A DNA stretch of 53,958 nt from an uncultured Pseudomonadota bacterium (GTDB lineage Bacteria; Myxococcota_A; UBA796; SXON01): assembly GCA_903844155.1 (NCBI GenBank), contig CAIMSU010000164.1:1-53958 (forward strand). Direction: 5' to 3'. How positions within the stretch are numbered: position 1 is the first letter of the stretch; each line of letters begins with the position of its first letter. The notes under the pieces are model-generated. The model was given only the letters and a program-made list of their open reading frames with translations, was not told the DNA's origin and did no database searches. Both the position numbers and the translations under genes were made by a program. Shown here one piece after another: positions 4,551 through 30,322 of the stretch.

Positions 4551-6983
4551 ATGCCGTTGACCCTCTCCCAGCTCGAACGCCATCTCTTCGGGGCCGCCGA
4601 CATCCTCCGTGGCAAGATGGACGCCTCCGACTTCAAGGAGTACATCTTCGGCCTGCTCTTCCTCAAGCGGTGCTCGGACGAGTTCGAATCGCAGCGCGAG
4701 AAGATCGTCGCAGCGCAGCTCGCGAAGGGCCGCTCAAAGGCCGATGCCGAGGAGCGCGCCGAGTCGGCGACCTCTTACCTCGACAGCTTCTTCGTCCCTG
4801 AGCGTGCCCGCTGGCCCCAGATCCGCGACCACCTCCACCAGAACATCGGCGACGGGCTGAACAAGGCGCTGGCCGCGCTCGAAGAGAACAACACCTCGCT
4901 CGACGGCGTCCTGCACCACATCGACTTCAACCGCACGATCGGCAAGTCGAAGATCCCCGACAAGCGCCTCCGGCAGCTCCTCGACCACTTCAACGAGTAC
5001 CGGCTGCGCAACGAGGACTTCGAGTTCCCCGATCTGCTCGGCGCAGCCTACGAGTACCTGATCGGCGAATTCGCCGACTCCGCCGGCAAGAAGGGCGGCG
5101 AGTTCTACACGCCGCGTACGGTCGTCAGGATGATCGTGCGCATCGCCAGGCCCGAGCAGGGGATGAAGGTCTACGACCCCTGCTGCGGGTCGGGTGGCAT
5201 GCTCATCCACGCTCAGGAGTACGTTCAGGAGCACGGCGGCAACCCTCGCGATCTGGCGCTCTACGGGCAGGAGGACAACGGCGGCGTCTGGTCGATCTCG
5301 AAAATGAACATGATCCTCCACGGCATCCCCGACGCGCGCATGGAGAACGGCGACACACTGGCGAACCCCCTACACAAGGAGGGCGGCGAGCTGATCCGCT
5401 ACCATCGTGTGTTGACCAATCCGCCGTTCAGCCAGAACTACACGCGGGACGGGATCCCCCACGCCGAGCGATTCCAGTACGGCTGGTGCCCCGAGAAGGG
5501 CAAGAAGGCCGACCTGATGTTCGTGCAGCACATGGTCGCAGTCCTGCGCGCCGACGGCATCGCTTTGACAGTCATGCCCCACGGCGTGCTCTTCCGTGGG
5601 GGCGACGAGCGAAAGATCCGCACTGGCTTCCTCGATGATGACGTGCTGGACGCCGTCATCGGCCTCCCCCAGAACCTGTTCTACGGGACGGGCATCCCGG
5701 CTTGCATCCTCGTCCTGCGCGCCAAGGGGAGCAAGCCGCCCGAACGACAGGGCAAGGTGCTGTTCATCAACGCCGACGCCGAATTCCGCGCCGGGCGAGC
5801 GCAGAACTACCTCGACCCCGAGCACGTTGAGCGCACTGTGCGGGCCTACGAAGACTTCCGGGAGATGCCCGGGTTCGCTGCCGTGGTCGATCGCAAGACG
5901 CTCGCCGACAACGACGACAACCTCAACATCCGTCGCTACGCGGACAATGCGCCGCCGCCCGAACCCCACGACGTCCGCGCCCACCTGCTCGGGGGCGTGC
6001 CGCGCGCGGAGGTGACCGCGAAGGCGGCGTTGTTCGCGGCGCACGGCTTCGACCCGGCCGTGATGTTCGTCGATCGGGACGCCCGCTATCTGGATTTCGC
6101 GCCGAGCGTGAACGACCGCGCCGAGATCCGCAGGCTGATCGAGACAGACTCCGGCGTGCTCGCGCGCGAGCAGGACGCACGGGATGCCTTCGCGAAGTGG
6201 TGGGCGACGAACCGTGGTCGCATCGTCGAATTGCCGAAGACGCGCAACCTGATGGCGCTGCGTGGGGAGGTGCTGGCGTCGTTCGTTCGCGCGCTTGGGC
6301 CGGTCGCCCTGTTGGACGAATTCCGCGTGGTGGGTGCTGTCGCGGCGGGCTGGGCCGACTCGGTCTACGACCTGAAGGCCCTGATGGTGCGCGACTTCGC
6401 GGGGGTGGTGGACGGCTGGATCGCGTCGATCCTCGCCGCACTGAAGGACGACGAGGAGCGGGCGGAGAAGAAGCTCCCGAAGATGCGCGGGAACCCGCTC
6501 GACCACAAGCTGGTCAAGAAGTTGCTCGGGAAGTACCTCGACGAGATCAACCTCGTCGAGGCGCAAGTCGCCGATTTGGACGCTCAGATCAAGGCCGCCG
6601 AGGCCGAGCCGGAGGAGGACGGCGAGGAGGAAGCGAACGGCGACGAGGGGATGTCACCGGACGAGTTGAAGCAAGCGAAGGTGAAGCGGGCGGACGCGCG
6701 GAAGCGGCTCAAGAAGCTCCAGGCGGCGTTCGCGCAGCGGTTGGAGCACGCGAGGGTGGAGTTGACCGCAGATCTGGCGCGGGACCTTGTGTTGGATCTG
6801 CTTCGGGCGGATCTTTCGTACCAGTTGGAGCTTCGCGTCGCGTCGCACCGGGACGGGGTAGTCGAGGCGGTCGAGAATTGGTGGGACAAGTATCGGGTGA
6901 CGTTGCGGACGATCGAAAGGGAGAGGGGCCGGGCGAAAACGAGGTTGGACGGGTTCCTTGGGGAGCTTGGGTATGGGGCCTGA
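4551..6983 (+). CDS. hsdM: Type I restriction system DNA methyltransferase HsdM
   Basis: N6-adenine methyltransferase subunit that forms an M2S complex with HsdS and R2M2S with HsdR. The N-terminal HsdM helical domain (residues about 5-150) leads into GEFYTPR (183-189), the SAM-binding motif DPCCGSGG (209-216) and the catalytic NPPF (290-293). At 810 residues it is much longer than the usual 480-550. The extra C-terminal 250 residues contain an acidic Glu/Asp run near 683-700 and predicted coiled coils on both sides. The start is supported by CGGAG eight bases upstream. The gene opens the operon hsdM-hsdS-AlbA_2-hsdR-ygjP-like, in which every following gene overlaps its predecessor. Confidence 0.95.
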
Positions 6984-8259
6984 CATCACTGGAGCGTGGA
7001 CCCCATCGACGCTGGGGCAAGTCGCCACCTGGCTCTCTGGCGGCACGCCGTCGAAGGCCAACCCCGCGTTTTGGGCTGGGGCGCTTCCGTGGGTGAGCCC
7101 AAAGGACATGAAGGTGTTTCGGCTGGGTGACACCGAGGACCACATCTCGGATCGTGGTGCGGAGTCAGGGTCGCGGACCGTGCCCGGCGGCGCCGTATTC
7201 GTCGTCGTTCGCGGCATGATTCTGGCGCACACCTTCCCGGTCTGTCTCGCGGGACGAGAGATGGCCTTCAACCAGGACGTGAAGGCCGGAATCCCCGGGC
7301 CCGGACTGTCGGGCGGGTTCCTCGGTCACTGGCTGGTCGGCAACTCCCACGGGCTTCTCGGGATCGTCACCGAGGCGACCCACGGCACGAAGCGGATCGA
7401 ATTGCGCGACTTTACCTCGTTCAAGATCCGAGTGCCAACGCCCCCGGAGCAAGCCCGGATCGCCGAGGTCCTCGACACTCTCGACGACGCCATCCGCACG
7501 ACCGAGCAGGTCATCGCCAAGCTGGAGATGGTCAAGCGCGGTCTGATGCACGACCTGCTCACCAACGGGATCGATGAGAATGGGGAGCTCCGGGATCCGG
7601 TGCGGCACCCGGAGCGGTTCAAGGACTCGCCTCTCGGCCGAGTCCCGAGTGAATGGGAGCCAGCACCTCTCCGCGACCTGTGTGAGCGCATTACTGACGG
7701 AACCCATCAGACCGTCCACACGACCGAACGCATGGCGGGCACGGTTCCCTTTCTCTACGTGTCCTCCGTGCGGGACGGGCGAGTCCGATGGGACGACGCG
7801 GGGCGAATCGATGCCAGCGTATTTCGGCAAATCAGTCTCGGTCGCGAGCCGCGAGCTGGTATGGTGTTGTACACGGCGGTGGGGTCATATGGGCACGCCG
7901 CCGTTGTTGAGGCCTTCCGAGAATTTAGTTTCCAGCGCCACTTGGCTTGTTTGTACCCGCGGCCAGCCCTGAACGGTCGATTTCTCGCTGAGTGGCTGAA
8001 CAGTGCCGCAGGCAGGTCGTTTGCCAACAAAGCGGCGATCGGGAACGCACAGAAGACTGTCACGCTAACCGCGCTGAAGTCGTGTGTCGTGCCTCTACCC
8101 CCGCTCGCAGAGCAACTGCTCATCGGGGCGCGCGCGGCCGGCCTCAGCCGCCTTCTGGACGCCCAGGCCAGCACGTTGGCCAAACTCCGCCTCCTAAAAA
8201 AAGGCCTCGCCGACGACCTCCTCACCGGCCGCGTCCGTGTCGCGGTAGCCTCGCCCTGA
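6973..8259 (+). CDS. hsdS: Type I restriction system specificity subunit HsdS
   Basis: Sequence-recognition subunit of the M2S complex. Two target-recognition domains are visible, each starting with a W-x-P-x-x-L-type strand (near residues 5 and 230) and each followed by a central helix: [17 protein letters not shown] at about 160-180, and [17 protein letters not shown] near the C-terminus. The two helices carry the conserved repeat ending [20 protein letters not shown] 6973 overlaps the hsdM stop by 11 bases, which implies translational coupling. The total of 428 residues is normal for a two-TRD HsdS. The recognised DNA sequence cannot be predicted from here. Confidence 0.93.
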
Positions 8260-10130
8260 TGCCTGCCGCTTTCGCCCCACCCACAACCCTCGCCGAGCTC
8301 GAAGCCCTGCGCGAAAGCTGGGACTTCGAGGCGAAGCTCGCACGCGGCAGGGACCAGCAAGGCGAGGTCCCACGAACGTTCTGGGAGACGTACAGCGCCT
8401 TCGCGAACACCGAGGGCGGCTGGGTGATCCTGGGCGCGAAGGAGCGGGCGGACCACACGCTGACGCTCGCCGGCGTCGGCGATGCGGTCAAGGTAGAGAA
8501 GGAGCTGTGGGACAACCTGAGCAACCGCCAGAAGGTGAGCGCCAACCTGCTCGGCCAGGGCGACGTGACCGCCGTCACCATCGACGGCCACACGATCCTC
8601 GTCGTTCGCGTCCCGAAGGCGGGACGGTCCGAACGCCCGGTGTTCATCAACGGGAGCTGGGAGACGGGCACCTTCGTCCGGGTGCACGAGGGCGACCACC
8701 GCGTCGAACGCGACGTCGCTCGCCGGATGCTCGCGGACGCACAGCCCAACCGGGACTCAGAGGTTCTCGCTCACACGTCGATGGACGACCTCGATTTGAA
8801 CGGCGTGCGCGTCTACCGGGAGATGTTCGCCACGCTTCGCCGTGAACACCCCTTTGTCGCGAAGTCAGACGCGGGCTTCCTGGAAGCCGTCGGGGCGTTG
8901 CGGTCCACGCCCGCGCGGTCCGGCCTGACTGTCGCTGGGCTGGTGATGTTCGGGCTCGAACAGGCGATCCGGGATCGCTACCCGCACTGGCACCTGTCCT
9001 ACCGTGAGGAGCCGGCCGACCGTTCCCTCGGGGTTCGCTGGCTCGACAGGGTCGTGGAAGATGGAACATGGGAAGCCAACATCTTCAACTTCTACCTTCG
9101 GGTCATGCCGAAGCTCCTCGCCCACGTGAAGACGCGCTTTGCGCTGGACCGCGACATGTTCCGCGTCGATGAGGGCCCCGTGCACGAGGCGGTCCGCGAG
9201 GCGTTCGTGAACACCCTCGTCCATGCCGACTACGAAGGGACGATGGGCGTGCGGGCGATCCGTCACCCGAACAGCTTCGAGTTCGTGAATCCGGGGCTCC
9301 CGTTGGTGTCCGTCGAACAGCTCTGGCGCGGTGGAACGAGCGATCCTCGCAACCCGGCCCTCCAGCAGCTCTTTCGACACGTCCTGCTCGGCGAACGAGA
9401 GGGATCGGGCGGGCCTGCGATCCTCCAGGCCTGGGCGCGAGAGCAATGGCAGAGGCCGGTGTTCCGCTTGGACCCCGACATCGGGCAGACGACCCTGGAG
9501 CTGAGCCAGGAGAGCCTCCTTCCTGCGTCGGTGGTCGAGGCGCTGGAGGCGCGCTGGGGGCGAGCCTTTCGGGAGTTGGACAGTCTCGGGAGGTCCATCC
9601 TTGTCTTCTCCTCCGTCGAGGGGGAGCTCAGTCACGCCCGCATCATGGAGGTCACCAGCGCGCATTCCCGCGACGTCACGCTCAAGCTTCAGGAGCTTGT
9701 CCGCCGCAAGTGGATGGTCGCCCTTGGCGATGCCAAGACGAAGCGGTACGCGCTGGCGGGGGTGGAACGCCCCGCGCGGACGTCGCTCCTTGATCCACCG
9801 TCCGCGATAGGTGCTACAAGCTCGCTGATTGCTACAAGCTCGGCCTCAACTGCTACAAGCTCGCCGACTGCTACAAGCTCGGCCTCGACTGCTACAAGCT
9901 CGGCTGCCGCCGGCCCCGAGCTGGCGGGGAGGGTCGTGTCCGCGATCTTACTCGGCTGCAACGAGGACTTCTTGACCGCCGCCGAAATCGCGACGCGCGT
10001 CGGTCGGTCCGTTGAGACGGTTCGACAGAACTACCTACCGGGACTGACAGCCAGCGGGCAACTCGAGCTTCGGTACCCAGACACCCCACGCCACCCCCAG
10101 CAGGCGTACCGCACCCGAGGTGACCCCTGA
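8259..10130 (+). CDS. AlbA_2/Schlafen-like putative ATP-binding protein
   Basis: The N-terminus has the AlbA_2 (Schlafen-like) pattern: ESWDFEAKL at about 19-27, then SAFANTEGGWVILG at 46-59. The middle shows VREAFVNTLVHADY near residue 312, the hallmark of the RecG-related ATP-binding domain (HATPase_c_4). Residues 425-515 include a winged-helix-like segment, and residues 520-550 are a Ser/Thr/Ala linker from a DNA tandem repeat. The last 60 residues contain another helix-turn-helix (AAEIATRVGRSVETV). ATG 8259 shares one base with the hsdS stop; the longer open frame upstream is hsdS read in another frame. Genes of this class often sit inside type I R-M operons; a regulatory or anti-invader role is suspected but not established. 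Confidence 0.85.
   Translation: MPAAFAPPTTLAELEALRESWDFEAKLARGRDQQGEVPRTFWETYSAFANTEGGWVILGAKERADHTLTLAGVGDAVKVEKELWDNLSNRQKVSANLLGQGDVTAVTIDGHTILVVRVPKAGRSERPVFINGSWETGTFVRVHEGDHRVERDVARRMLADAQPNRDSEVLAHTSMDDLDLNGVRVYREMFATLRREHPFVAKSDAGFLEAVGALRSTPARSGLTVAGLVMFGLEQAIRDRYPHWHLSYREEPADRSLGVRWLDRVVEDGTWEANIFNFYLRVMPKLLAHVKTRFALDRDMFRVDEGPVHEAVREAFVNTLVHADYEGTMGVRAIRHPNSFEFVNPGLPLVSVEQLWRGGTSDPRNPALQQLFRHVLLGEREGSGGPAILQAWAREQWQRPVFRLDPDIGQTTLELSQESLLPASVVEALEARWGRAFRELDSLGRSILVFSSVEGELSHARIMEVTSAHSRDVTLKLQELVRRKWMVALGDAKTKRYALAGVERPARTSLLDPPSAIGATSSLIATSSASTATSSPTATSSASTATSSAAAGPELAGRVVSAILLGCNEDFLTAAEIATRVGRSVETVRQNYLPGLTASGQLELRYPDTPRHPQQAYRTRGDP
9813..9902 (+). repeat. In-frame tandem repeat, five copies
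   Basis: GCTACAAGCTCG occurs five times (9813, 9831, 9852, 9870, 9891), with spacings alternating exactly 18, 21, 18, 21. It encodes a low-complexity Ala-Thr-Ser-Ser linker between the core and the C-terminal helix-turn-helix of the AlbA_2 protein. All spacings are multiples of three, so copy-number change would keep the reading frame. Confidence 0.95.
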
Positions 10131-13100
10131 GCGGTCCTGAGAAGGCGAAGGTCGAAGACCCGTTCATCGACCAGCTCGTACGGATGGGTTGGGAGCATGT
10201 CACGGGCAACATCGACTACCCGTCGGCCACTGGGCGAGCGTCGTTCCGCGAGGTGCTGCTCCTCGACGACCTCCGTCGGGCGCTGCGGACCATCAACAGG
10301 ACCGCCGACGGCAAAGAATGGCTCGACGCCGCGCGAATCTCGACCGCCGTCTCCGCTTTGGAGCGCCTCGACGCCTCCAAGCTGATGGAGGCCAACGAGG
10401 CTGTCCACAACCTGCTCCTGACCGGCGTCTCCGTGGAAGGTGTCGCGGATCGGGAGGGTGGACGGATGCCGACCGTCCACTTCATCGACTGGCAGAACCC
10501 CGGCCGCAACCGGTTCACGGTCGTCAGCCAGTTCCGCGTCGACGAGCCCTCGGGCCAGACCCACGGCTTCATCACGCCGGACCTCGTGTTGTTCGTCAAC
10601 GGCATCCCGCTCGTCGTCGTGGAGTGCAAGGCACCCGGGATCTGCGAGCCGATGGCCTCGGCTGTGGATCAGCTCCAGCGGTACGCGAACCAACGCGACA
10701 TCGACAACCCCAGCCGCAAGAACGAAGGCAACGAGCGGCTGTTCCACTACAACGCCTTCACCGTCGCCACCTGCTTCGACTGGGCTCGGGTCGGGACTGT
10801 CGGCGCACAGTCGGTCCACTTCCTGCAATGGAAGGACGTAGCGCCCATTCCGGCCGAGGCCTTCTCCAAGGAATCCGTCGCCGCGCAGCTCGGCAAGGGG
10901 AAGCTCTCCAACCAGGAGCTGCTCGTGGCCGGGATGCTCCGCAAAGAGCACCTGATCGACCTGTTGCGACACTTCATCGTCTTCGAGGTCGACCAGGGCC
11001 GGACGATCAAGAAAGTCGCCCGCTACCAGCAATTCCGGGCCGTTCTCGCCGCCGCCGCGCGCCTGGAGACAGGGAAGACCCTCGCCCAGGACGGCGAGTT
11101 TGACCGACGTGGCGGCATCATCTGGCACACCCAGGGGAGCGGGAAGAGCCTGTCGATGGTGTTCCTCGCCCGGAAGATGCGGTCCCATCCGACGTTGCGC
11201 CGGTTCAAGATCGTCATCGTCACTGATCGGCGGGACCTCCAGAAGCAGCTCTCCCAGACCGCCGAGCTGACGGGCGACGTGATCACGACGCCGAACAGCA
11301 CGGCATCCCTCCAGCGGGCGCTCAAGAAGCCCGGCCCTGGGCTCGTGTTCGCGATGATCCAGAAGTACCAAGGGGACATCGTGACGGGCCCGCAGAAAAT
11401 CGCGCCGTTCCCGGTCCTGAATGAATCGGAAGCGATCGTCGTCATTGTGGACGAGGCGCACCGCTCCCACGCAAAGGGGCTCCACGCGAACCTGACCAAA
11501 GCCCTGCCGCGGTGCGCACAGATCGGGTTCACGGGCACCCCGATCATCATGGGAGCGAAGAAGAAGACCCACGAGATTTTCGGCGACTGGATCGATCGGT
11601 ACACGATCGCGCAGTCCGAGGCCGACGGCAGCACGTTGCCCATCCTCTACGAGGGGCGGACCACGCAGGCGAAAGTGGCCGACGGGCGGGACCTCGACGA
11701 GGTCTTCGAGGACATGTTCCAGGACCGCTCCAAGGAGGAGCTGGAGGCGATCAAGGCCAAGTACGCCACGGCCGGGGATGTGCTCGAAGCGGAGAAGCTC
11801 ATCGCCGCCAAGGCGAAGAACATGCTCCGCCACTACGTCGACAACATCCTGCCGAACGGATTCAAGGCCCAGGTCGTGGCCGTCAGCCGGCTGGCTGCGA
11901 TGCGGTATCAGAAGGCGCTGGTCGCGGCGCGCGACGAGCTGTTGAAGGACATCGCCGGCCTCTCGTCGAAAGCAATCAACGCCACGCCGGAGGAGGCGTC
12001 GCACCTACCGGAGAGGACGCAATTCTTGCTGCGCGCGCGCGGGCAGCTTGGCCGCCTCCAGCAGATCGAGTTTGCGGCCGTCTACTCGCGCGCCCACAAC
12101 GACCCCGCCATGCTGGACGAGTGGAGCGAACCGGAGAAGGTCCCGAAGCGGATTGAGGACTTCAAGAAGCCGTTTGAGCACAAGGACCCAGAGAAGCGGT
12201 CAAATCTGGCCTTCCTCATCGTCAAGTCGATGCTGATCACGGGCTTCGACGCCCCGATCGCTCAGGTGCAGTATCTGGACCGCAGCATCCAGGAGGCGGA
12301 ACTCCTCCAGGCGATCGCCCGGGTGAACCGGACCTACACCAAGAAGCATGCCGGAATCGTCGTCGACTACTGCGGGGTCGGGAACCACCTGAAGAAGGCG
12401 CTCAAGGAGTATTCCAAGGAGGACATCGCCGATATCGAAGGCGGGTTTCGGTCCATCGCCGACGAGCTGCCCAACCTGCGCGACCGTCACCTTCGTGTAG
12501 TGGCGGTGTTCACGGACCGCGACGTCTCCCTGATCGACGAGCAGGGCTGTGTCGACCTGCTCCGCGATGAGCAGCTCCGGGCCGAGTTCACGGTCAAGCT
12601 TCAGGACTTCCTCAAGTCGCTCGACACCGTGCTGCCGCGACCCGAGGGGCTGGAATTCGTCGCTGACGCTCGTGCGCTCGGCATCATCGCCTACCGAGCG
12701 CGCCAGCTCTATCGGGACCATACCTTCGTCCTCGGGAAGGACGTCGGCGAGAAGGTGCGGGCACTGATCGACCAGCACATCATCTCGCTCGGCATCGACC
12801 CCCGCATCCCCCCGGTCTCCATCCTCGACGCGACGTTCGAGGACAAGGTCAAGGCGCTCCCCACGCCGAAGGCCCGGGCGTCCGAGATGGAACACGCCCT
12901 GCGCTACCACATCGGCGAGCACGAGAACGAGGACCCCGAGCACTTCCAGAAGCTCTCTGAGCGCCTTGAGGGGATCCTCACTCAGTTCAAGGATCGCTGG
13001 GACGAGATCGAGAAGGAGCTCAAGGAGCTGCTTGATGCGGCCATTGCTGGGAGAGCGCGGGTGATTCCTGGCCTGGATCCCCAGATCCACGCGCCATTCT

Positions 13101-13375
13101 TCGGCGTCCTCCAACTGGCGGTCGGCGGCAAGGGGGAGATCTCGGCCGAGCAGCAGGAGCAGCTCGCTGAAGTCGCCGTGGCGCTCGTCGATCACATCCG
13201 GGCTGAGATCCGTCTCGTCGGGTTCTGGACGAACGCCCACGCCCAGGAGGTACTCCGCAAGTGGATCGTCCAACGCCTCGACGAGCAGGACATCCTGCCG
13301 TTTGGCAAGCTGCCGGAGGTCGCCGACCGCCTGCTTGAGGTCGCGAAGGCCAACCAACAACGGCTCGCGCGATGA
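10127..13375 (+). CDS. hsdR: Type I restriction system endonuclease/translocase HsdR
   Basis: ATP-dependent DNA translocase and endonuclease of the R2M2S complex. The N-terminal PD-(D/E)XK nuclease is seen as TPDLVLFV then VVVECK (about residues 150-168). The SF2 helicase motor shows QGSGKS (motif I), VDEAH (motif II) and FTGTP (motif III). A long helical C-terminal domain follows. The first ATG (10184) would cut off PFIDQLVRMGWEH, the conserved start of HsdR proteins. The frame is open back to TGA 10121, and the only fitting start is CTG 10127, which overlaps the previous stop as CTGA and follows GAGGTGA at 10117-10123. That gives 1082 residues. The next gene overlaps by ATGA. Confidence 0.93.
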   Translation: MSGPEKAKVEDPFIDQLVRMGWEHVTGNIDYPSATGRASFREVLLLDDLRRALRTINRTADGKEWLDAARISTAVSALERLDASKLMEANEAVHNLLLTGVSVEGVADREGGRMPTVHFIDWQNPGRNRFTVVSQFRVDEPSGQTHGFITPDLVLFVNGIPLVVVECKAPGICEPMASAVDQLQRYANQRDIDNPSRKNEGNERLFHYNAFTVATCFDWARVGTVGAQSVHFLQWKDVAPIPAEAFSKESVAAQLGKGKLSNQELLVAGMLRKEHLIDLLRHFIVFEVDQGRTIKKVARYQQFRAVLAAAARLETGKTLAQDGEFDRRGGIIWHTQGSGKSLSMVFLARKMRSHPTLRRFKIVIVTDRRDLQKQLSQTAELTGDVITTPNSTASLQRALKKPGPGLVFAMIQKYQGDIVTGPQKIAPFPVLNESEAIVVIVDEAHRSHAKGLHANLTKALPRCAQIGFTGTPIIMGAKKKTHEIFGDWIDRYTIAQSEADGSTLPILYEGRTTQAKVADGRDLDEVFEDMFQDRSKEELEAIKAKYATAGDVLEAEKLIAAKAKNMLRHYVDNILPNGFKAQVVAVSRLAAMRYQKALVAARDELLKDIAGLSSKAINATPEEASHLPERTQFLLRARGQLGRLQQIEFAAVYSRAHNDPAMLDEWSEPEKVPKRIEDFKKPFEHKDPEKRSNLAFLIVKSMLITGFDAPIAQVQYLDRSIQEAELLQAIARVNRTYTKKHAGIVVDYCGVGNHLKKALKEYSKEDIADIEGGFRSIADELPNLRDRHLRVVAVFTDRDVSLIDEQGCVDLLRDEQLRAEFTVKLQDFLKSLDTVLPRPEGLEFVADARALGIIAYRARQLYRDHTFVLGKDVGEKVRALIDQHIISLGIDPRIPPVSILDATFEDKVKALPTPKARASEMEHALRYHIGEHENEDPEHFQKLSERLEGILTQFKDRWDEIEKELKELLDAAIAGRARVIPGLDPQIHAPFFGVLQLAVGGKGEISAEQQEQLAEVAVALVDHIRAEIRLVGFWTNAHAQEVLRKWIVQRLDEQDILPFGKLPEVADRLLEVAKANQQRLAR

Positions 13376-19492: not shown

Positions 19493-20283
19493 CAGGCCAC
19501 GAGAGTGGCGTCGGAGGTGTCGTCGAACCGGGGCAGCCGGGTGCGGAGGGGGCGGTCGAGGTACAGCTCGACGGCCTCGACCTCCAACGCCGCCCACTGC
19601 TCGTTGCTCACCAGCTCCAGCGTGCGGAGGTTGAAGGCCAGATTGCGCAGGACCTCGAACGCGAACAGGCGGCGGTGCTGGTCGGCCTGCACCTCGGCCT
19701 CCTCGTAGTGTCGCTCAAGGAGGTCGGCGAGGTCAGCGAGCATCCCCCGCATGTCGCCCGTCAGCCCGCGCATCTGCTCGATCGTCGGCAGGAGGATGGA
19801 CGTCGCAGGCGTGGGCGGTGCGGGGATCTCCGGGGACGGCACGGGCTGCGGGGCGAGTGGTGCCCCGCCCTGATCATCGCCGCCGGTGTCGCCCGGGAAG
19901 GGCTCGCCAGCAGCGTAGGCCTCGGCTCGCGCGAAGACCGTGCGGACGAGGAAGCCAATGAGCTTCTTGGCGTTTCTGGCGTTCGAACGAAGCAGCGTGA
20001 GCATCGCGCCCAGCGGGAACAGGACGATGAGCTCGGTCGTCCCCTCGGGCAGCTCGACCTCGCGCTTGATCGCGGCGAGTTCCTTCCCGGTGACAGTCGC
20101 GATGTGCTCGTCGTCTTCAAGGGATGCAGGCCACTCCTTGCAGATGAGGTCGATGAACGGCTGCCCGGCATCGGAGTAGCCGGCGGCGGCCCCGAGCTCC
20201 CGCGCGATGAACGCGGTGCGTCCGCGAAGGTAGAGGACGTGGATCGGGATGTCGAGGAAGGGGATGACGAAGAGGACGGACAT
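19492..20283 (-). CDS. BRO-N-like phage antirepressor
   Basis: Residues 1-120 read like the BRO-N/P22-antirepressor domain: a short strand, FIARELGAAAGYSD near residues 25-38, a helix around FIDLICKEW, VTGKELAAIKRE, and a final LTLLRSNARNAKKLIGFLV helix. A Pro-rich linker follows (about 145-165). The C-terminal 95 residues are a helical unit without a recognised family. AGGAG seven bases before ATG 20283 fixes the start, so the upstream extension is discarded. It is translationally coupled to the primase-helicase. In phages such proteins inactivate repressors or bind DNA; control of this element's replication genes is a reasonable inference. Confidence 0.7.
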   Translation of the reverse strand: MSVLFVIPFLDIPIHVLYLRGRTAFIARELGAAAGYSDAGQPFIDLICKEWPASLEDDEHIATVTGKELAAIKREVELPEGTTELIVLFPLGAMLTLLRSNARNAKKLIGFLVRTVFARAEAYAAGEPFPGDTGGDDQGGAPLAPQPVPSPEIPAPPTPATSILLPTIEQMRGLTGDMRGMLADLADLLERHYEEAEVQADQHRRLFAFEVLRNLAFNLRTLELVSNEQWAALEVEAVELYLDRPLRTRLPRFDDTSDATLVA

Positions 20284-20287
20284 GGGC

Positions 20288-20590
20288 TTACTCCTGTTTG
20301 ATCGAGGGCTTGACGGACGGACGCCGACGAGTCGTGACGACCGCCGGACTCGGGGGAACGGGTGCGGGAGCCGACGCCGCCGCGTGCCGTTGGGCATCGC
20401 GTCGTTGCGCCATCTCGCGCAGGACCGTGAACGCCCCGAGGACGTTCGTCGCCATGTCCAGGCCGTCGTCGTCCGTCAGGGGCTTGACGTAGAGGTGCTG
20501 GAAGAAGTCGCGGGCAGAGCGCGCGAGTTCAGGGCTGACGTGGGGAATTGCGGGTGCTGGCATCGGGACGGGCTCGTCGGGAGACGCCAT
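20288..20590 (-). CDS. Small hypothetical protein, first gene of primase operon
   Basis: A 100-residue protein with a Pro-rich start (about 1-20), a helical centre (HVSPELARSARDFFQHLY and following) and a basic Arg/Lys-rich end. It ends four bases before the antirepressor start, so the three genes form one minus-strand operon. No family recognised. The basic tail would suit nucleic-acid binding, but that is a guess. Confidence 0.6.
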   Translation of the reverse strand: MASPDEPVPMPAPAIPHVSPELARSARDFFQHLYVKPLTDDDGLDMATNVLGAFTVLREMAQRRDAQRHAAASAPAPVPPSPAVVTTRRRPSVKPSIKQE

Positions 20591-20953
20591 TCCGGTACGC
20601 CGGGCGGGTTTTTCGGTCCGTTAGTTGACCGTTAGTTGGAGAGGGTGAAAACCGGGTGAACGGGAGCGAATGAATCGCCGTTCAGCAGGGGGATCGGTGG
20701 GGTGTTGGTGTTGGGAGCGGGGAAGATGGGGATGGGATTCTGTGCTGAGCGTTAGTTGGCGGAGGTGAGGGCCCGTCGGCGGGGAGCGGGGTCGTAGCCG
20801 CTGACCCTGCCCTTCGCCCCGCAGCCGGTCTGGCGCTCACGGCGACCGGCTCGGTGCCGTATGCCGTGCCCGCCGTCCGCCCCCTCACGGCAACGGTAGT
20901 CCCCGGCGCACTTCGCGGACATCGCGTTAGATGCAGGTCATTCTGGAGTCGCC
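20591..20953. promoter_or_regulatory. Divergent control region of primase and nuclease operons
   Basis: This 363-base gap separates the minus-strand primase operon from the plus-strand nuclease operon and must contain both promoters. On the primase side lie phased repeats (20618-20660). CGTTAG recurs at 20750 (followed by TTG, like the phased copies) and at 20925. CTGGAG at 20943-20948 is the ribosome binding site of the nuclease operon. No clear -35/-10 pair was identified. Confidence 0.5.
20618..20660. repeat. 11-bp-phased operator-like repeats
   Basis: CCGTTAGTTG occurs at 20618 and 20629, and GGGTGAA at 20643 and 20654. Both pairs have a period of 11 bases, about one helical turn, so bound proteins would sit on one face. 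A further CGTTAGTTG lies at 20750. The position just upstream of the small gene/antirepressor/primase operon suggests a repressor or initiator binding site. Confidence 0.55.
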
Positions 20954-22699
20954 ATTAAAGCCCAGCTAAACGTGTTTCGAAACTATGTGCCGCCTCAAAT
21001 AGATGATCAGCGGGCCAAGGTCGAGGAGAACAAGCGGCCGCTCGAAAATGACCTGACGCGGGCGCTGGTCATTGTTCTTGAGCGCCTCCTGATCGATGGG
21101 TTGGCCCCGAGCTTTCTGACGCGCCTCGTCGAGCCCGGCGCGAACGGAGTCGCAGCCGACTTTCGGGTGATCGCCGCGACGGCCGTGCTTCCTGGCACGG
21201 CGTTGTCTCTGCAAGCGTGGCCCGGCGCCCTTTCGCGGGATCCGGCGCGCCGCCGTGTGTTGGTCGGCGTGAGCGGCAAGGGACCCTCGGATGCCTGGAG
21301 CCACGAGCGGCAACTGTTCGCCACTCGCTCGCAACCCGACGCCGGGCTTGAGACGCCGGCCGGAACGCTCGTCTTCGAGGTGAAGCCCTACGAGTTGCCT
21401 CTGGACGCCGCTCAGATGGTTCGGTACGCGAGAGAGATGCGGTTCCCCGGCGCCGACAGCATTCAGGGGGACGCCGTTACCGGCTCGCTCAGCGCCCAGG
21501 AGGCTGCGGCAGCGCGCCAGCAGCTTCAGCCGCACTTGCTTGAGGTGACGTGGAACCAGGTCCTGGAGGCGACGACGGGTGTCCTCGCCGCCCTGAACGA
21601 GGGGGAGCGACCGATCAGCCATTACCTCCTCAGCCAGTTCCGGGACTATCTGGCGATTTACCCGAAGCAATCGCTCCCGTACACCCTGGGCTGGGGTCCG
21701 AAATCCATCGCCGCGCTCTCCGGGATCGCCCACGAAGGCCTGCTCGACGCCCGGATCCGCGTCTTCGCCGCCGACTTTGCCGTGGAGGTGGCAGATGCTT
21801 GGAAGGCACGAGGGGGAACACGCTGGCGCCTTGCAAACATCACGGAGGGGAAGGGCCTCATCAAGCTCGGGGCCTCCGGTGCCCCGTACTTCGTGGCCGC
21901 CCCGCTCGGGAATCCCGGGATGGTCACGCCGTTGGGGCCGCAGCTCGCGGGTCATGCCTCCCGTCGAAGCGGTCGAAAGGCGTCTGGCACGCCTACGATC
22001 CCCGAGTCGGGGAAGGTGACGTTCAGCGTCAGCGTCGCAACGACGATCCTGAAGGGGGAACCGCTCCTGTCGCTCGATCTCTACGCGCAGGCGGTTGGTG
22101 TGGACATCTTCTCGAACAAGTTGCCCGCCGGCGTCACCTCGCTGGGCGTCAAGGCTACGGTGGAGCACGCGGCCGTTTTTAACTGGCCCGAACATTGGAG
22201 GGCGAAGCGCAAGGATCAGATGAAAAAACGCGGCGACTGGTACGACGCGGTGGACGGCTGGCTCCAAAAGCTGGCCAACTCGCCTTCCCTGTCGCCCGAG
22301 GTCGTCGTCCAGGTCGATGCCGTCGGGTTTCGGGGCGGCTATCTAAAGTGGCAGTGCGAGGGCGCTGGCGAGACGAAGCGGTCCGCCGCGCTGACTACGG
22401 AGCGTTGGCCCGATGAGCCGCCGGCTACGCGCCTCAAGAACCTCGCCGCAGCCCTGGGAGAGCAGCGGGCGAGTTCGCTCGCGGACCCGATTTGGGCCTT
22501 CCCGTACTGGTCGGAGGAGCCGGGTCGAACGGCGACGGAGGTCGGTCGGGGTCTCGCACGCCAGGTCCGAAAGCCGGCGATCAGTGTTCAGGTCCCTTTG
22601 ACGGTGCCGGTGGACTCGTCCTCGAAGGGAGCCGCCGACTTGATCGCGCTTGCGCTCGATCAGCTCTACGCGACCGTCGCGGCGCCGTCCAGGAGCTGA
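20954..22699 (+). CDS. Putative PD-(D/E)XK nuclease-like protein
   Basis: A 581-residue protein of no recognised family. The N-terminus has an ENDLTRAL helix (about 31-38), common in restriction-like folds of defence proteins. It is followed by a candidate catalytic set: D129 in QPDAG, then E142-V-K144 in VFEVKP. The last 430 residues are unassigned. The first GTG (20972) has no ribosome binding site. ATT 20954 lies five bases after CTGGAG and gives the natural-looking start (M)KAQLNVF; a TAG closes the frame upstream and no ATG, GTG or TTG lies between. The next gene follows after three bases. Role inferred as the nuclease component of a two-gene module; confirming the fold needs structural comparison. 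Confidence 0.6.
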   Translation: MKAQLNVFRNYVPPQIDDQRAKVEENKRPLENDLTRALVIVLERLLIDGLAPSFLTRLVEPGANGVAADFRVIAATAVLPGTALSLQAWPGALSRDPARRRVLVGVSGKGPSDAWSHERQLFATRSQPDAGLETPAGTLVFEVKPYELPLDAAQMVRYAREMRFPGADSIQGDAVTGSLSAQEAAAARQQLQPHLLEVTWNQVLEATTGVLAALNEGERPISHYLLSQFRDYLAIYPKQSLPYTLGWGPKSIAALSGIAHEGLLDARIRVFAADFAVEVADAWKARGGTRWRLANITEGKGLIKLGASGAPYFVAAPLGNPGMVTPLGPQLAGHASRRSGRKASGTPTIPESGKVTFSVSVATTILKGEPLLSLDLYAQAVGVDIFSNKLPAGVTSLGVKATVEHAAVFNWPEHWRAKRKDQMKKRGDWYDAVDGWLQKLANSPSLSPEVVVQVDAVGFRGGYLKWQCEGAGETKRSAALTTERWPDEPPATRLKNLAAALGEQRASSLADPIWAFPYWSEEPGRTATEVGRGLARQVRKPAISVQVPLTVPVDSSSKGAADLIALALDQLYATVAAPSRS

Positions 22700-22702
22700 G
22701 CG

Positions 22703-24187
22703 ATGGCCGTTGGGGCCTCCCCCCTCTCAAAATCCCGCTACCTTTCCGGCCTCCAATGCTGGAAGCGGCTGTACTGGGAGGTTCACCGCCGGGACCTTCT
22801 CCCCGAGGCCGATGACCCCGGCCTTCAGGCCATCTTCGACGCGGGGCACGAGGTCGGCAGCCTCGCCTGCGAGCGACACCCGGGCGGGGTTCTGATCGAG
22901 GGCGACCACTTCCATCACGCGGAGGCCGTCGAGGCCACCAGGCTTGCGATGGACGAGCCGAGCGTGCCCGCCATCTTCGAGGCAGCCTTCACCTTTCAGG
23001 GCGTAAAGGTCCGGGCCGACATCCTGATCAGGCACGCCGACGGCACCTGGGATCTTCAGGAGGTCAAGAGCACCACCAGGGTCAAGGACGTCCATTTGCC
23101 CGACGTCGCCGTGCAGGTGTTCGTCATCACTGGATGCGGCGTGAAGCTCCGGCGGGCCGGAATCCTGCACCTGAACCGGGACTACGTGCTCGGCGACGGA
23201 GGGCTCAACGTCGCGGCGTTGTTCAGGTTCGTCGACCTCGCGACCGTGCTCGACACTCACCTCGCCGCCGTCAAAGCCAACGTGCCCGCCCTCATCGCGA
23301 TGCTCGGGCTGCCCGGCGTGCCCGCAATCGCTGCGGGTGACCACTGCTTTACGCCCTACGAATGCCCGTTCACCTCAATCTGCTGCGTGCCCGCAGGCCC
23401 CTACGATCTCGCTCAAGTGCCGCGAGGAGGCAAGCTCGCTGCGTCGATGACCGCGCTCGGCGTGAGCGACGTTCGCCAGATCCCAGCCGGCACCAAGCTG
23501 TCGGCCCTCCAGAAGCGGGTCATCGACGCCGCGGTCGGCGGCAAGGAGCAGGTCGGCCGAGGGCTCCGCGCCGCGCTCGACGCCGTGGCGGCTCCGCTCA
23601 TGTTCATGGACTTCGAGACGTTCGCTCCCGCGATCCCGCGGTACGTCGGCACTCGCGTCTATCAGGCCCTGCCCACGCAGTGGAGCCTCCATGCGCTGCG
23701 GCCCGACGGGAGCCTGACGCACGACGAGTTCCTGCACCAGACCGACACGGACCCGCGTCTGGCGTTCGCCGAGAGCTTGCTCGCCGCCCTCGGGGACGCT
23801 GGCTCGGTCGTGGTCTACTCGTCCTACGAAGCGAGCCAGATTCGGCGTCTGGCCACCGACCTGCCGGAGCTCGCGGCGCGGCTCCTGGCGCTGATCCCCC
23901 GCCTCGTCGATCTGCTGCGGATCGTGCAACGCCACTACTACCACCCCGATTTCGGAGGTTCGTTCTCGATCAAGCGTGTCCTCCCCACCCTCGCGCCCGA
24001 CCTGGGCTACGGTGACCTCACCATCGCTGACGGCAGCACCGCCGCGATGATGTACGGCCGCATGATCGACACCGACACGCCCAAAGCTGAGAGTGCCGCG
24101 ATCCGGGAGAGCCTCCTCCGCTACTGCGAGCGGGACACGCTCGCGATGGTCCGCGTCCGCGAGGCCCTGCTGGCCCGTTGCCCCTGA
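22703..24187 (+). CDS. DUF2779-type nuclease/exonuclease
   Basis: A 494-residue protein with three visible parts. The N-terminal RecB/Cas4-like PD-(D/E)XK nuclease has D106 in RADILI and E120-V-K122. Cysteines at 19, 215, 221 and 227/228 are placed like the four iron-sulfur ligands of Cas4/AddB-type nucleases. The C-terminal half is DnaQ-like: DFE (303-305) and a final YCERD (474-478), as in DEDDy exonucleases. This order is characteristic of DUF2779 proteins. AGGAG eight bases before ATG and a three-base gap show coupling to the preceding nuclease-like gene. DUF2779 function is not established; DNA or RNA degradation is inferred from the catalytic residues. Confidence 0.75.
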   Translation: MAVGASPLSKSRYLSGLQCWKRLYWEVHRRDLLPEADDPGLQAIFDAGHEVGSLACERHPGGVLIEGDHFHHAEAVEATRLAMDEPSVPAIFEAAFTFQGVKVRADILIRHADGTWDLQEVKSTTRVKDVHLPDVAVQVFVITGCGVKLRRAGILHLNRDYVLGDGGLNVAALFRFVDLATVLDTHLAAVKANVPALIAMLGLPGVPAIAAGDHCFTPYECPFTSICCVPAGPYDLAQVPRGGKLAASMTALGVSDVRQIPAGTKLSALQKRVIDAAVGGKEQVGRGLRAALDAVAAPLMFMDFETFAPAIPRYVGTRVYQALPTQWSLHALRPDGSLTHDEFLHQTDTDPRLAFAESLLAALGDAGSVVVYSSYEASQIRRLATDLPELAARLLALIPRLVDLLRIVQRHYYHPDFGGSFSIKRVLPTLAPDLGYGDLTIADGSTAAMMYGRMIDTDTPKAESAAIRESLLRYCERDTLAMVRVREALLARCP

Positions 24188-28430: not shown

Positions 28431-28625
28431 GGGGTTCGACCTTGTGTGGCTGAGAGGTAGCGTGAGTGGCCGCGCAGCGGAAGGCTGAACATGAGATAAA
28501 AAGTTCAGTAGAGATACCAAAAAATGTCCTCATCTCGCGTTAGCCCTTTCCCTTGCCAACCGCCTGAAAACTATGTCAAGTACAACCAGCACTTCCCACG
28601 CCACCCCCGTCCCCTTGGAGTCCCC
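28431..28625. promoter_or_regulatory. Divergent promoter region of recombinase and 387-residue gene
   Basis: AT-richer than its surroundings around 28485-28530. An inverted repeat CTGAAC (28485-28490) / GTTCAG (28503-28508) with a 12-base, A-rich spacer is a likely operator. TTGGAG six bases before 28626 is the recombinase ribosome binding site. The start of the open frame at 28524 lies inside this region and is not used. Confidence 0.5.
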
Positions 28626-30290
28626 ATGATCAGCCCCACGCCCGTCCGCAAGCCCGGTGCCATCCTCGACCGCGCCCCTGTGCTGCCCCGCCCCAGCTCG
28701 AAGCCCGCCGCAGTCCTGACGAAGGTGCCCGCCGTGCTCTACGCGCGCGTGTCCTCCCGCGATCAAGAGAAGGAGGGCTTCAGCATCCCCGCGCAGGAAA
28801 AGCTGCTTCGCGCCTACGCTGAGGACAGGGGCTTCCGCATCGAGGCCGAGTACGTGGACATCGAGACGGCGAAGAAGGTCGGGCGGCTCAACTTCGGGAA
28901 GATGGTGGCTTGGCTGCGGAAGAACCCCGCGTGCAAGAGCATCCTCGTGGAGAAGACCGACCGCCTGTACCGGAACCTCAAGGACTGGGTCGAGCTCGAC
29001 GGCATGGACCTTGAGATCCACCTCGTGAAGGAGTCGATCATCCTCTCCGACAGCTCCCGGTCGCACGAGAAGTTCATTCATGGAATCAAGGTGTTGATGG
29101 CCAAGAACTACATCGACAACCTCTCCGAGGAGGTCAAGAAGGGGATGCTGGAGAAGGCTGAGCAAGGCATCTTCCCCGGACCGGCCCCGATCGGCTACAT
29201 CAATGCCCCGCGTGGGGATGGCAAGCGGATCATCGAGCCCGATCCGGCCTATTCGCCGTCCGTCGTTCGGATGTTCGAGCTGTACGCGACGGGAACCTAC
29301 ACGCTGAAGTCGCTGCAGCAGAACCTCAAGGACGAGGGCATCCTGAGCCGCCGCTCGAAGACGGCCATCGGCATCCCGAACATCCACATCACCCTGCGAA
29401 ACCCGCTTTACAAGGGCGAGTTCACATGGCGGGGCATCTGGTACCAGGGGTCGCACAAGCCGCTCGTCAGCGTCGAGACCTGGGACCGCGTCCAGGCGAT
29501 CATGGACGGGCGGGGCAGCACGCATCCGGCGGTGCAGCGGCACAACTTCGCGTTCAACGGGCTGGTCGCCTGCGCGACATGTGCTGACTTCGGCGAGCGC
29601 CGCCTGCTGGTCGGGGAGATCCAGAAGAAGACCTACGTCTACTACCACTGCGCCGGCTGCCAGCGCTCCGGGCGAAAGGCGCGCTTCATCAAGGAGGAGC
29701 TGCTCTTCGCGATGGTGGGCCGCCAGCTTGCACGGCTCCAGCTCGACGGGGTCTTGATGGAGTGGCTCAAGACCGGCCTACGCGACTCCCACCTCGACGA
29801 GGTCCGCTTCCACCACGCGGCCGTCGAGCGCCTGAACAAGCAGCAGGCCAGCCTCCAGCGCAAGCTCGACCTGCTGTACGGGGACCGGCTGGACGAGCGG
29901 ATCACGCTCCAGGCCTACGAGGACAAGGCCAACGGCCTGCGCGAGGAGATGGCGCACGTCCGTGCGGAGCTCGCCCGGCACCAGGTCGCCGACCGCTCCT
30001 ACACCGAGGAGGGCATCGGTTTGCTTGAACTCGCAGGAAAGGCGTTCGATCTTTGGGAATCTGAGACAGCCCCCGAAAAGCGTCGGCTGCTGGATTTCAT
30101 GTGTTTGAACTCCGAGTTCCGCGACGGACTGCTCATCATCACATGGAGGAAACCCTTCGATGTACTCGCACAATCCATCGAGGCGGCGAAAGGGACGGGC
30201 TCCGCTTTTGACGAATCTGGCGAAGCCCGTCCTGAATGGTGGGGGCGGCGAGACTTGAACTCGCAAGGACTTTCATCCGGTCGATTTTGA
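28626..30290 (+). CDS. Large serine recombinase (integrase)
   Basis: Site-specific recombinase of 554 residues that integrates and excises the island. The N-terminal resolvase domain shows YARVSSRDQ with catalytic Ser43. The recombinase domain follows (GPAPIGYIN, about 190-300), then a zinc ribbon CATC...CAGC (about 317-345) and a coiled coil (about 395-460), as usual for this family. TTGGAG before ATG 28626 fixes the start. The last 17 residues, starting at the double Trp, are translated from antisense tRNA-Leu sequence, and the stop codon lies in the tRNA anticodon loop. This indicates insertion at the tRNA 3' end. Confidence 0.93.
   Translation: MISPTPVRKPGAILDRAPVLPRPSSKPAAVLTKVPAVLYARVSSRDQEKEGFSIPAQEKLLRAYAEDRGFRIEAEYVDIETAKKVGRLNFGKMVAWLRKNPACKSILVEKTDRLYRNLKDWVELDGMDLEIHLVKESIILSDSSRSHEKFIHGIKVLMAKNYIDNLSEEVKKGMLEKAEQGIFPGPAPIGYINAPRGDGKRIIEPDPAYSPSVVRMFELYATGTYTLKSLQQNLKDEGILSRRSKTAIGIPNIHITLRNPLYKGEFTWRGIWYQGSHKPLVSVETWDRVQAIMDGRGSTHPAVQRHNFAFNGLVACATCADFGERRLLVGEIQKKTYVYYHCAGCQRSGRKARFIKEELLFAMVGRQLARLQLDGVLMEWLKTGLRDSHLDEVRFHHAAVERLNKQQASLQRKLDLLYGDRLDERITLQAYEDKANGLREEMAHVRAELARHQVADRSYTEEGIGLLELAGKAFDLWESETAPEKRRLLDFMCLNSEFRDGLLIITWRKPFDVLAQSIEAAKGTGSAFDESGEARPEWWGRRDLNSQGLSSGRF
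30237..30290. other. Putative attachment site within tRNA-Leu
   Basis: The 3' 54 bases of the tRNA gene, including the encoded CCA, overlap the recombinase 3' end. This is the expected chromosome-island junction. The exact core cannot be set because the partner site was not found in the window. Confidence 0.45.
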
Positions 30291-30322
30291 GCCGACTGCG
30301 TCTACCATTCCGCCACGCCCCC
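30237..30322 (-). tRNA. tRNA-Leu(CAA)
   Basis: Acceptor stem GGGGGCG/CGCCCCC, D-arm GGCGGAATGGTAGAC, anticodon stem GTCGG/TCGAC around the loop CTCAAAA (anticodon CAA), a long class II variable arm, T-arm GCGAG-TTCAAGT-CTCGC, discriminator A and an encoded CCA. The total of 86 bases is normal for leucine tRNA. It reads UUG codons. It is intact despite serving as the insertion site. Confidence 0.95.

Follow-up and report, generated by a model that had tools for sequence, protein, structure and literature searches.

Proteins of the DUF2779 family (PF11074) have an architecture and a predicted 3'-5' exonuclease activity that have been known since 2014. Majorek et al. 2014 (PMC3985635) places PF11074 in a 3'-5' exonuclease clade, notes a DUF83 (Cas4-type) nuclease domain and presumes a 3'-5' exonuclease activity. 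The family is rarely mentioned in the open literature, and the papers on it that we read do not treat it as a defence gene. A second point of comparison is the candidate family PDC-M15A, which is represented in PADLOC (model PDLC04455) and of which our searches of the open literature returned no mention. In Myxococcota its genes carry the motifs E-D-x-LT and PD...ExK...Q, and the three full-length loci have an adjacent gene of 203-210 aa.

DUF2779 genes also occur on plasmids, where their partners vary. We opened 22 of the 30 plasmid records matching the family (20 of the 22 were annotated). Plasmids of Rhodoferax and Diaphorobacter encode DUF2779 with a tandem-AAA (PF00004) ATPase and a WYL regulator (AAA 55% and WYL 63% identical), and a Sphingobium plasmid has the same set in a rearranged form. 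In two Arcobacteraceae plasmids (L048 4908-8337 and L060 4806-7491), a PDDEXK_4 (PF14281) nuclease lies directly upstream of DUF2779, from which it is separated by 1 base in one case and 61 bases in the other. A WYL protein bearing a DnaA-like ATPase match follows the two genes in L048. Other combinations include HATPase/DEAD helicase/PLD in Planktothrix, and SbcC-type ATPases with a dGTPase in Aliarcobacter and Arcobacter.

Here we analyse a DUF2779 gene, P2, that is preceded by a gene for a predicted nuclease, P1. The window, i.e. the whole stretch of DNA that was studied (53,958 bases), is an entire contig of an 8.1-Mb myxococcotal genome (375 contigs, 67.6% GC). P2 is known in kind; what is new here is its combination with P1. 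The features are listed in Table 1.

Table 1. Features of the gene pair, its products and its surroundings (window positions unless residues or a plasmid locus are indicated).
Feature	Position	Strand	Description
Type I R-M locus	4551..13375	+	HsdM 4551-6983, HsdS 7108-8259, Schlafen-AlbA protein 8259-10130, HsdR 10184-13375
Opposite-strand genes, probably mobile-element	16559-20590	-	Immediately upstream of the pair; the two larger genes have no family match
Leader between divergent genes	20591..20953	+	363 bp, three CGTTAGTTGR repeats
CGTTAGTTGR repeats	20618, 20629, 20749 (20618-20640, 20749-20760)		In the P1 leader; three exact copies of SCGTTAGTTGRM
P1	20954..22699	+	ORF; 581 aa if translation starts at the ATT (the GTG codons at 20972/20987 would give 575/570 aa)
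P1 N-terminal domain	about residues 19-200		Predicted PD-(D/E)XK nuclease (motifs, low-confidence AF2 model, PDC-M15A likeness)
P1 C-terminal part	about 350 residues		No fold assigned
P2	22703..24187	+	ORF; 494 aa, DUF2779 protein
P2 Cas4/RecB-like PD-(D/E)XK half	D106, E120, K122, Q138; cysteines C19, C215, C221, C227		Predicted nuclease
P2 DEDDy half	D303, E305, D403, Y474, D478		Predicted exonuclease
Large serine recombinase (integrase)	28524..30290	+	Pfam Resolvase 2.4e-19, Recombinase 4.7e-13
tRNA-Leu (CAA)	30237..30322	-	ARAGORN; overlapped by the end of the recombinase ORF
Tandem-AAA/DUF2779/WYL clusters (plasmids)	L046 3848-8462, L059 3733-8467, L045 3516-7497

Organization of the gene pair

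The original prediction described a tightly coupled pair of nuclease genes with neither an ATPase nor a helicase, and we found the pair to be organized in this way. The stop codon of P1 (22697-22699) is separated by three bases from the ATG of P2 (22703), and neither gene encodes an ATPase or a helicase. The two proteins are probably co-translated, or translationally coupled, because an AGGAG motif precedes the P2 ATG by 7 bases, within the 3' end of the P1 gene. Both genes score as coding (87 and 118) in a codon model for which the window served as training set, and their GC3 values are 0.80 and 0.87. P1 lacks an ATG. A start at or near its ATT is a better candidate than either of the two available GTG codons, because N6 and the NVF motif, which are shared with the only homologue of P1, begin before the first GTG, and because GGAG lies 5 bases upstream of the ATT.

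P2 is an ordinary DUF2779 protein

P2 matches the Pfam model of DUF2779 with E = 4.7e-37 (127.5 bits for a cut-off of 23.3), and RNase_H_2 with E = 4.5e-6. The residues expected for both activities are conserved among 40 DUF2779 homologues. In the nuclease half, D106 is found in 38/40, E120 in 34/40 and K122 in 33/40, while the cysteines C215, C221 and C227 are present in all 40 and C19 in 37. In the exonuclease half, D303 (39/40) and E305 (40/40) are accompanied by D403, Y474 and D478, which complete the DEDDy site and are conserved in the same set. Measured against the RNase H-like family F.17 of PMC3985635, P2 has the full architecture (DUF83/Cas4-like PD-(D/E)XK followed by DEDDy) with all catalytic residues and cysteines. 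The earlier reading of P2 as a DUF2779 protein joining a RecB-like nuclease, Cas4-like cysteines and a DEDDy exonuclease was therefore accurate. P2 is an ordinary member of its family, i.e. a predicted Cas4-like nuclease fused to a predicted DEDDy exonuclease; it shows no departure from the family, and only its partner is unusual.

P1 is a rare predicted nuclease

P1 has no match in Pfam, NCBIfam, PHROGs, PADLOC or the PDB, and no relative was found in plasmids, phages or viral contigs (IMG/VR). Its sole homologue in 379 Myxococcota genomes (27% identity) is encoded by a Myxococcales MAG, hereafter G060, and the same protein was the only one returned from the contigs of 85k species, which were searched with two narrow patterns. 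Weak matches to the N-terminal domain in 141 genomes were attributed to chance; the EN..T motif was absent where the locus was fetched.

The motifs that had singled out P1 as a candidate nuclease, ENDLTRAL and QPDAG...FEVK, are present as described and conserved in the G060 homologue. They correspond to E31-N32-x-L34-T35-R36, Q127-x-D129 and E142-x-K144. The first of these motifs, D129, E142-x-K144, Q154 and Y158 are invariant between the two proteins, and the helix-borne E31, D129, E142/K144 and Q154 follow one another as is usual in a PD-(D/E)XK site. From its motifs and from structure modelling, we regard P1 as quite likely to be a PD-(D/E)XK nuclease.

The AF2 model of residues 1-235 (mean pLDDT 62.5, pTM 0.65) contains a long helix, strands at 101-107, 130-134 and 137-143, a helix at 152-161 and a strand at 195-199. 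At low confidence, this order would fit the alpha-beta3-alpha-beta core of PD-(D/E)XK enzymes. A Foldseek search with this model against the PDB and BFVD gave no match at E ≤ 0.001. In a VIA-align comparison of the domain, EcoT38I came at rank 4 with a Z of 2.1, which is at noise level. The full-length model (pLDDT 31.7) was unusable. A relation of P1 to PDDEXK_4 (PF14281) is not supported, with no Pfam match and an hhalign P of 0.18 against PDDEXK_4 proteins.

P1 and PDC-M15A share the sequence of an E(N/D)xLT helix and then a D...ExK...Q core. The G060 homologue matches PDLC04455 across the D...ExK core (E = 2.3e-4), whereas P1 itself has no match to this model at E ≤ 10. An hhalign comparison of P1 with PDC-M15A places D129/E142/K144 on D99/E112/K114, with a P of 0.03 and a probability of only 1.6%. 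The pattern E[ND]x[LIV]T...D...ExK...Q selects from 690 called proteins only P1, its G060 homologue and the three full-length PDC-M15A proteins; it was composed after these proteins had been seen and is a check of specificity, not an independent proof. P1 differs from PDC-M15A in having double the length and in its partner: no M15B-like protein of roughly 205 aa is encoded beside P1, where the downstream gene is DUF2779. P1 is probably a very rare, unannotated lineage of predicted nucleases, kin of the candidate PDC-M15A family. The genome of P1 also encodes a genuine PDC-M15A gene with a partner of roughly 210 aa (738-2223 of locus L120, contig C375); Pfam gives a family for neither of them.

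The pair lies on a mobile island

The region is mobile, because the large serine recombinase adjoins a tRNA-Leu. This tRNA is the probable insertion site of the island, and the recombinase marks its right edge. No direct repeat of at least 13 bases of the tRNA-Leu occurs elsewhere in the window, which leaves the window without a long att repeat derived from this tRNA. To the left of the pair, at 7-18 kb, are the type I R-M genes, the Schlafen-AlbA protein and a fragment of an AAA_21 ATPase. To call the island full of defence genes, as the original prediction did, is fair but overstates the case. The genes immediately upstream of the pair probably belong to a mobile element. One of them (16559-19597, minus strand) encodes about 1000 aa with a P-loop-like motif, NKPGVGKST, has no family match and lies beside an antirepressor-like gene; the two are probably mobile-element replication genes.

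In the P1 leader no sigma-70-like promoter was found. The CGTTAGTTGR repeats may serve as operators or as sites of the element. When one mismatch is allowed, the window holds four matches, a number that one of 100 whole-window shuffles reaches.

This location raises the question of whether the pair serves the island itself, by processing ends in excision, replication or transfer, or by excluding related elements. The position of the pair between the probable mobile-element genes (including the one of about 1000 aa) and the serine recombinase at the tRNA speaks for such a role. Yet DUF2779 is often chromosomal in places that have no mobile element, and to our knowledge serine recombinases need no accessory nucleases. 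We consider this explanation unlikely.

The pairing is not conserved

DUF2779 is encoded by 36/284 Myxococcota genomes. A P1-like gene lies near none of the 31 Myxococcota loci that could be located in gene calls and near none of the 22 plasmid loci. Conversely, the G060 genome has no DUF2779; its P1 is followed by 17 kb without this gene on a contig that begins 169 bp upstream, leaving one side unseen. The closest relatives of P2, one in another genome (G147, locus L110, 61% identity) and one encoded by a second copy in the same genome (L025, 58%), both lack P1. This second copy (L025 9559-18999, contig C199) closely precedes a type I R-M locus, one gene of which encodes a YhcG/DUF1016 nuclease.

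The original prediction was that the pairing of P1 with DUF2779 defines a conserved, undescribed two-gene defence system. The tight coupling, the nuclease motifs and the type I R-M genes of the island speak for it. Against it, no second instance was found in the 379 Myxococcota genomes, in contigs of 85k species (searched with limited patterns), in IMG/VR, or among plasmids and phages. We now hold it to be very improbable: the parts and the location suit a defence module, but the pairing is not conserved as far as our searches reach, an outcome that the prediction itself had named as refuting it. Within the same scope, the pair is a one-off assembly of modules of known type, not a conserved named system.

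A different possibility is that the two genes have no joint function, P2 being a housekeeping DUF2779 protein of DNA repair or end processing that was carried along and P1 an unrelated selfish nuclease. In several genomes of a sister genus (L099, L103, L104, L105, L106, L032), DUF2779 is fixed between sulfotransferase-like and FHA-like genes (labels that are impressions from the sequence, with no profile search). Because its position is fixed, these genes suggest vertical inheritance and a resident cellular role. DUF2779 also adjoins ordinary genes in other genomes, and this separate-function reading agrees with the absence of P1 beside the closest relatives of P2 and of DUF2779 from the genome with the P1 homologue. 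It is harder to reconcile with the three-base gap and the internal ribosome-binding site, by which P1 and P2 are probably made together, and with plasmids, where DUF2779 repeatedly adjoins nucleases, ATPases and WYL regulators. We regard the absence of a joint function as doubtful, though it deserves to be taken seriously.

The plasmid loci resemble the pair to different degrees. The Arcobacteraceae loci are like it in having a PD-(D/E)XK nuclease immediately upstream of DUF2779. However, this nuclease is of another family and its sequence shows no detectable relation to P1, and in one of the two loci a WYL regulator follows. 'Nuclease + DUF2779' thus recurs with differing nucleases, and the pair of the window is one instance of this looser pattern. 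The clusters of Rhodoferax, Diaphorobacter and Sphingobium also place DUF2779 within a compact, mobile, defence-like gene set; unlike the pair, they also encode an ATPase and a regulator. They are better candidates than the pair for a conserved DUF2779 defence module.

Proposed role and implications

We see about an even chance that P1 and P2 form a co-translated, ATP-independent, DNA-degrading cassette, carried as cargo by the serine-recombinase island of this myxococcotal genome. The Arcobacteraceae analogues and the second DUF2779 copy near type I R-M count in favour of this cargo reading. The sister-genus DUF2779 between non-defence genes counts against it, since the protein can be housekeeping. 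A role in defence is kept plausible because the pair sits on a mobile, restriction-rich island.

If the pair is such a cassette, we infer that its two products would act in succession. P1, as a metal-dependent PD-(D/E)XK nuclease with an N-terminal module resembling PDC-M15A, would nick or cut incoming DNA. Its C-terminal half would probably bind DNA or choose the target, and is a natural candidate for sparing self DNA. The Cas4-like Fe-S PD-(D/E)XK domain of P2 would then open or trim DNA ends, and its DEDDy 3'-5' exonuclease would resect the ends exposed by P1, without ATP. The expected outcome would be the degradation of phage or competing mobile DNA.

DUF2779 is widespread. It occurs at a fixed place on chromosomes, and on plasmids it accompanies nucleases, ATPases and WYL regulators that differ from case to case. 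The double occurrence leads to a testable hypothesis, that of a resection module recruited by different immune systems. We put it forward tentatively and with rather low confidence: DUF2779 would be a portable immunity module served by varied initiating nucleases (P1/PDC-M15A-like or PDDEXK_4) or by AAA+/WYL proteins, and the pair of the window its minimal ATP-independent form, an endonuclease with an Fe-S end-resecting exonuclease. To such a repertoire P1 would add a rare, unannotated lineage of predicted nucleases linked to the candidate PDC-M15.
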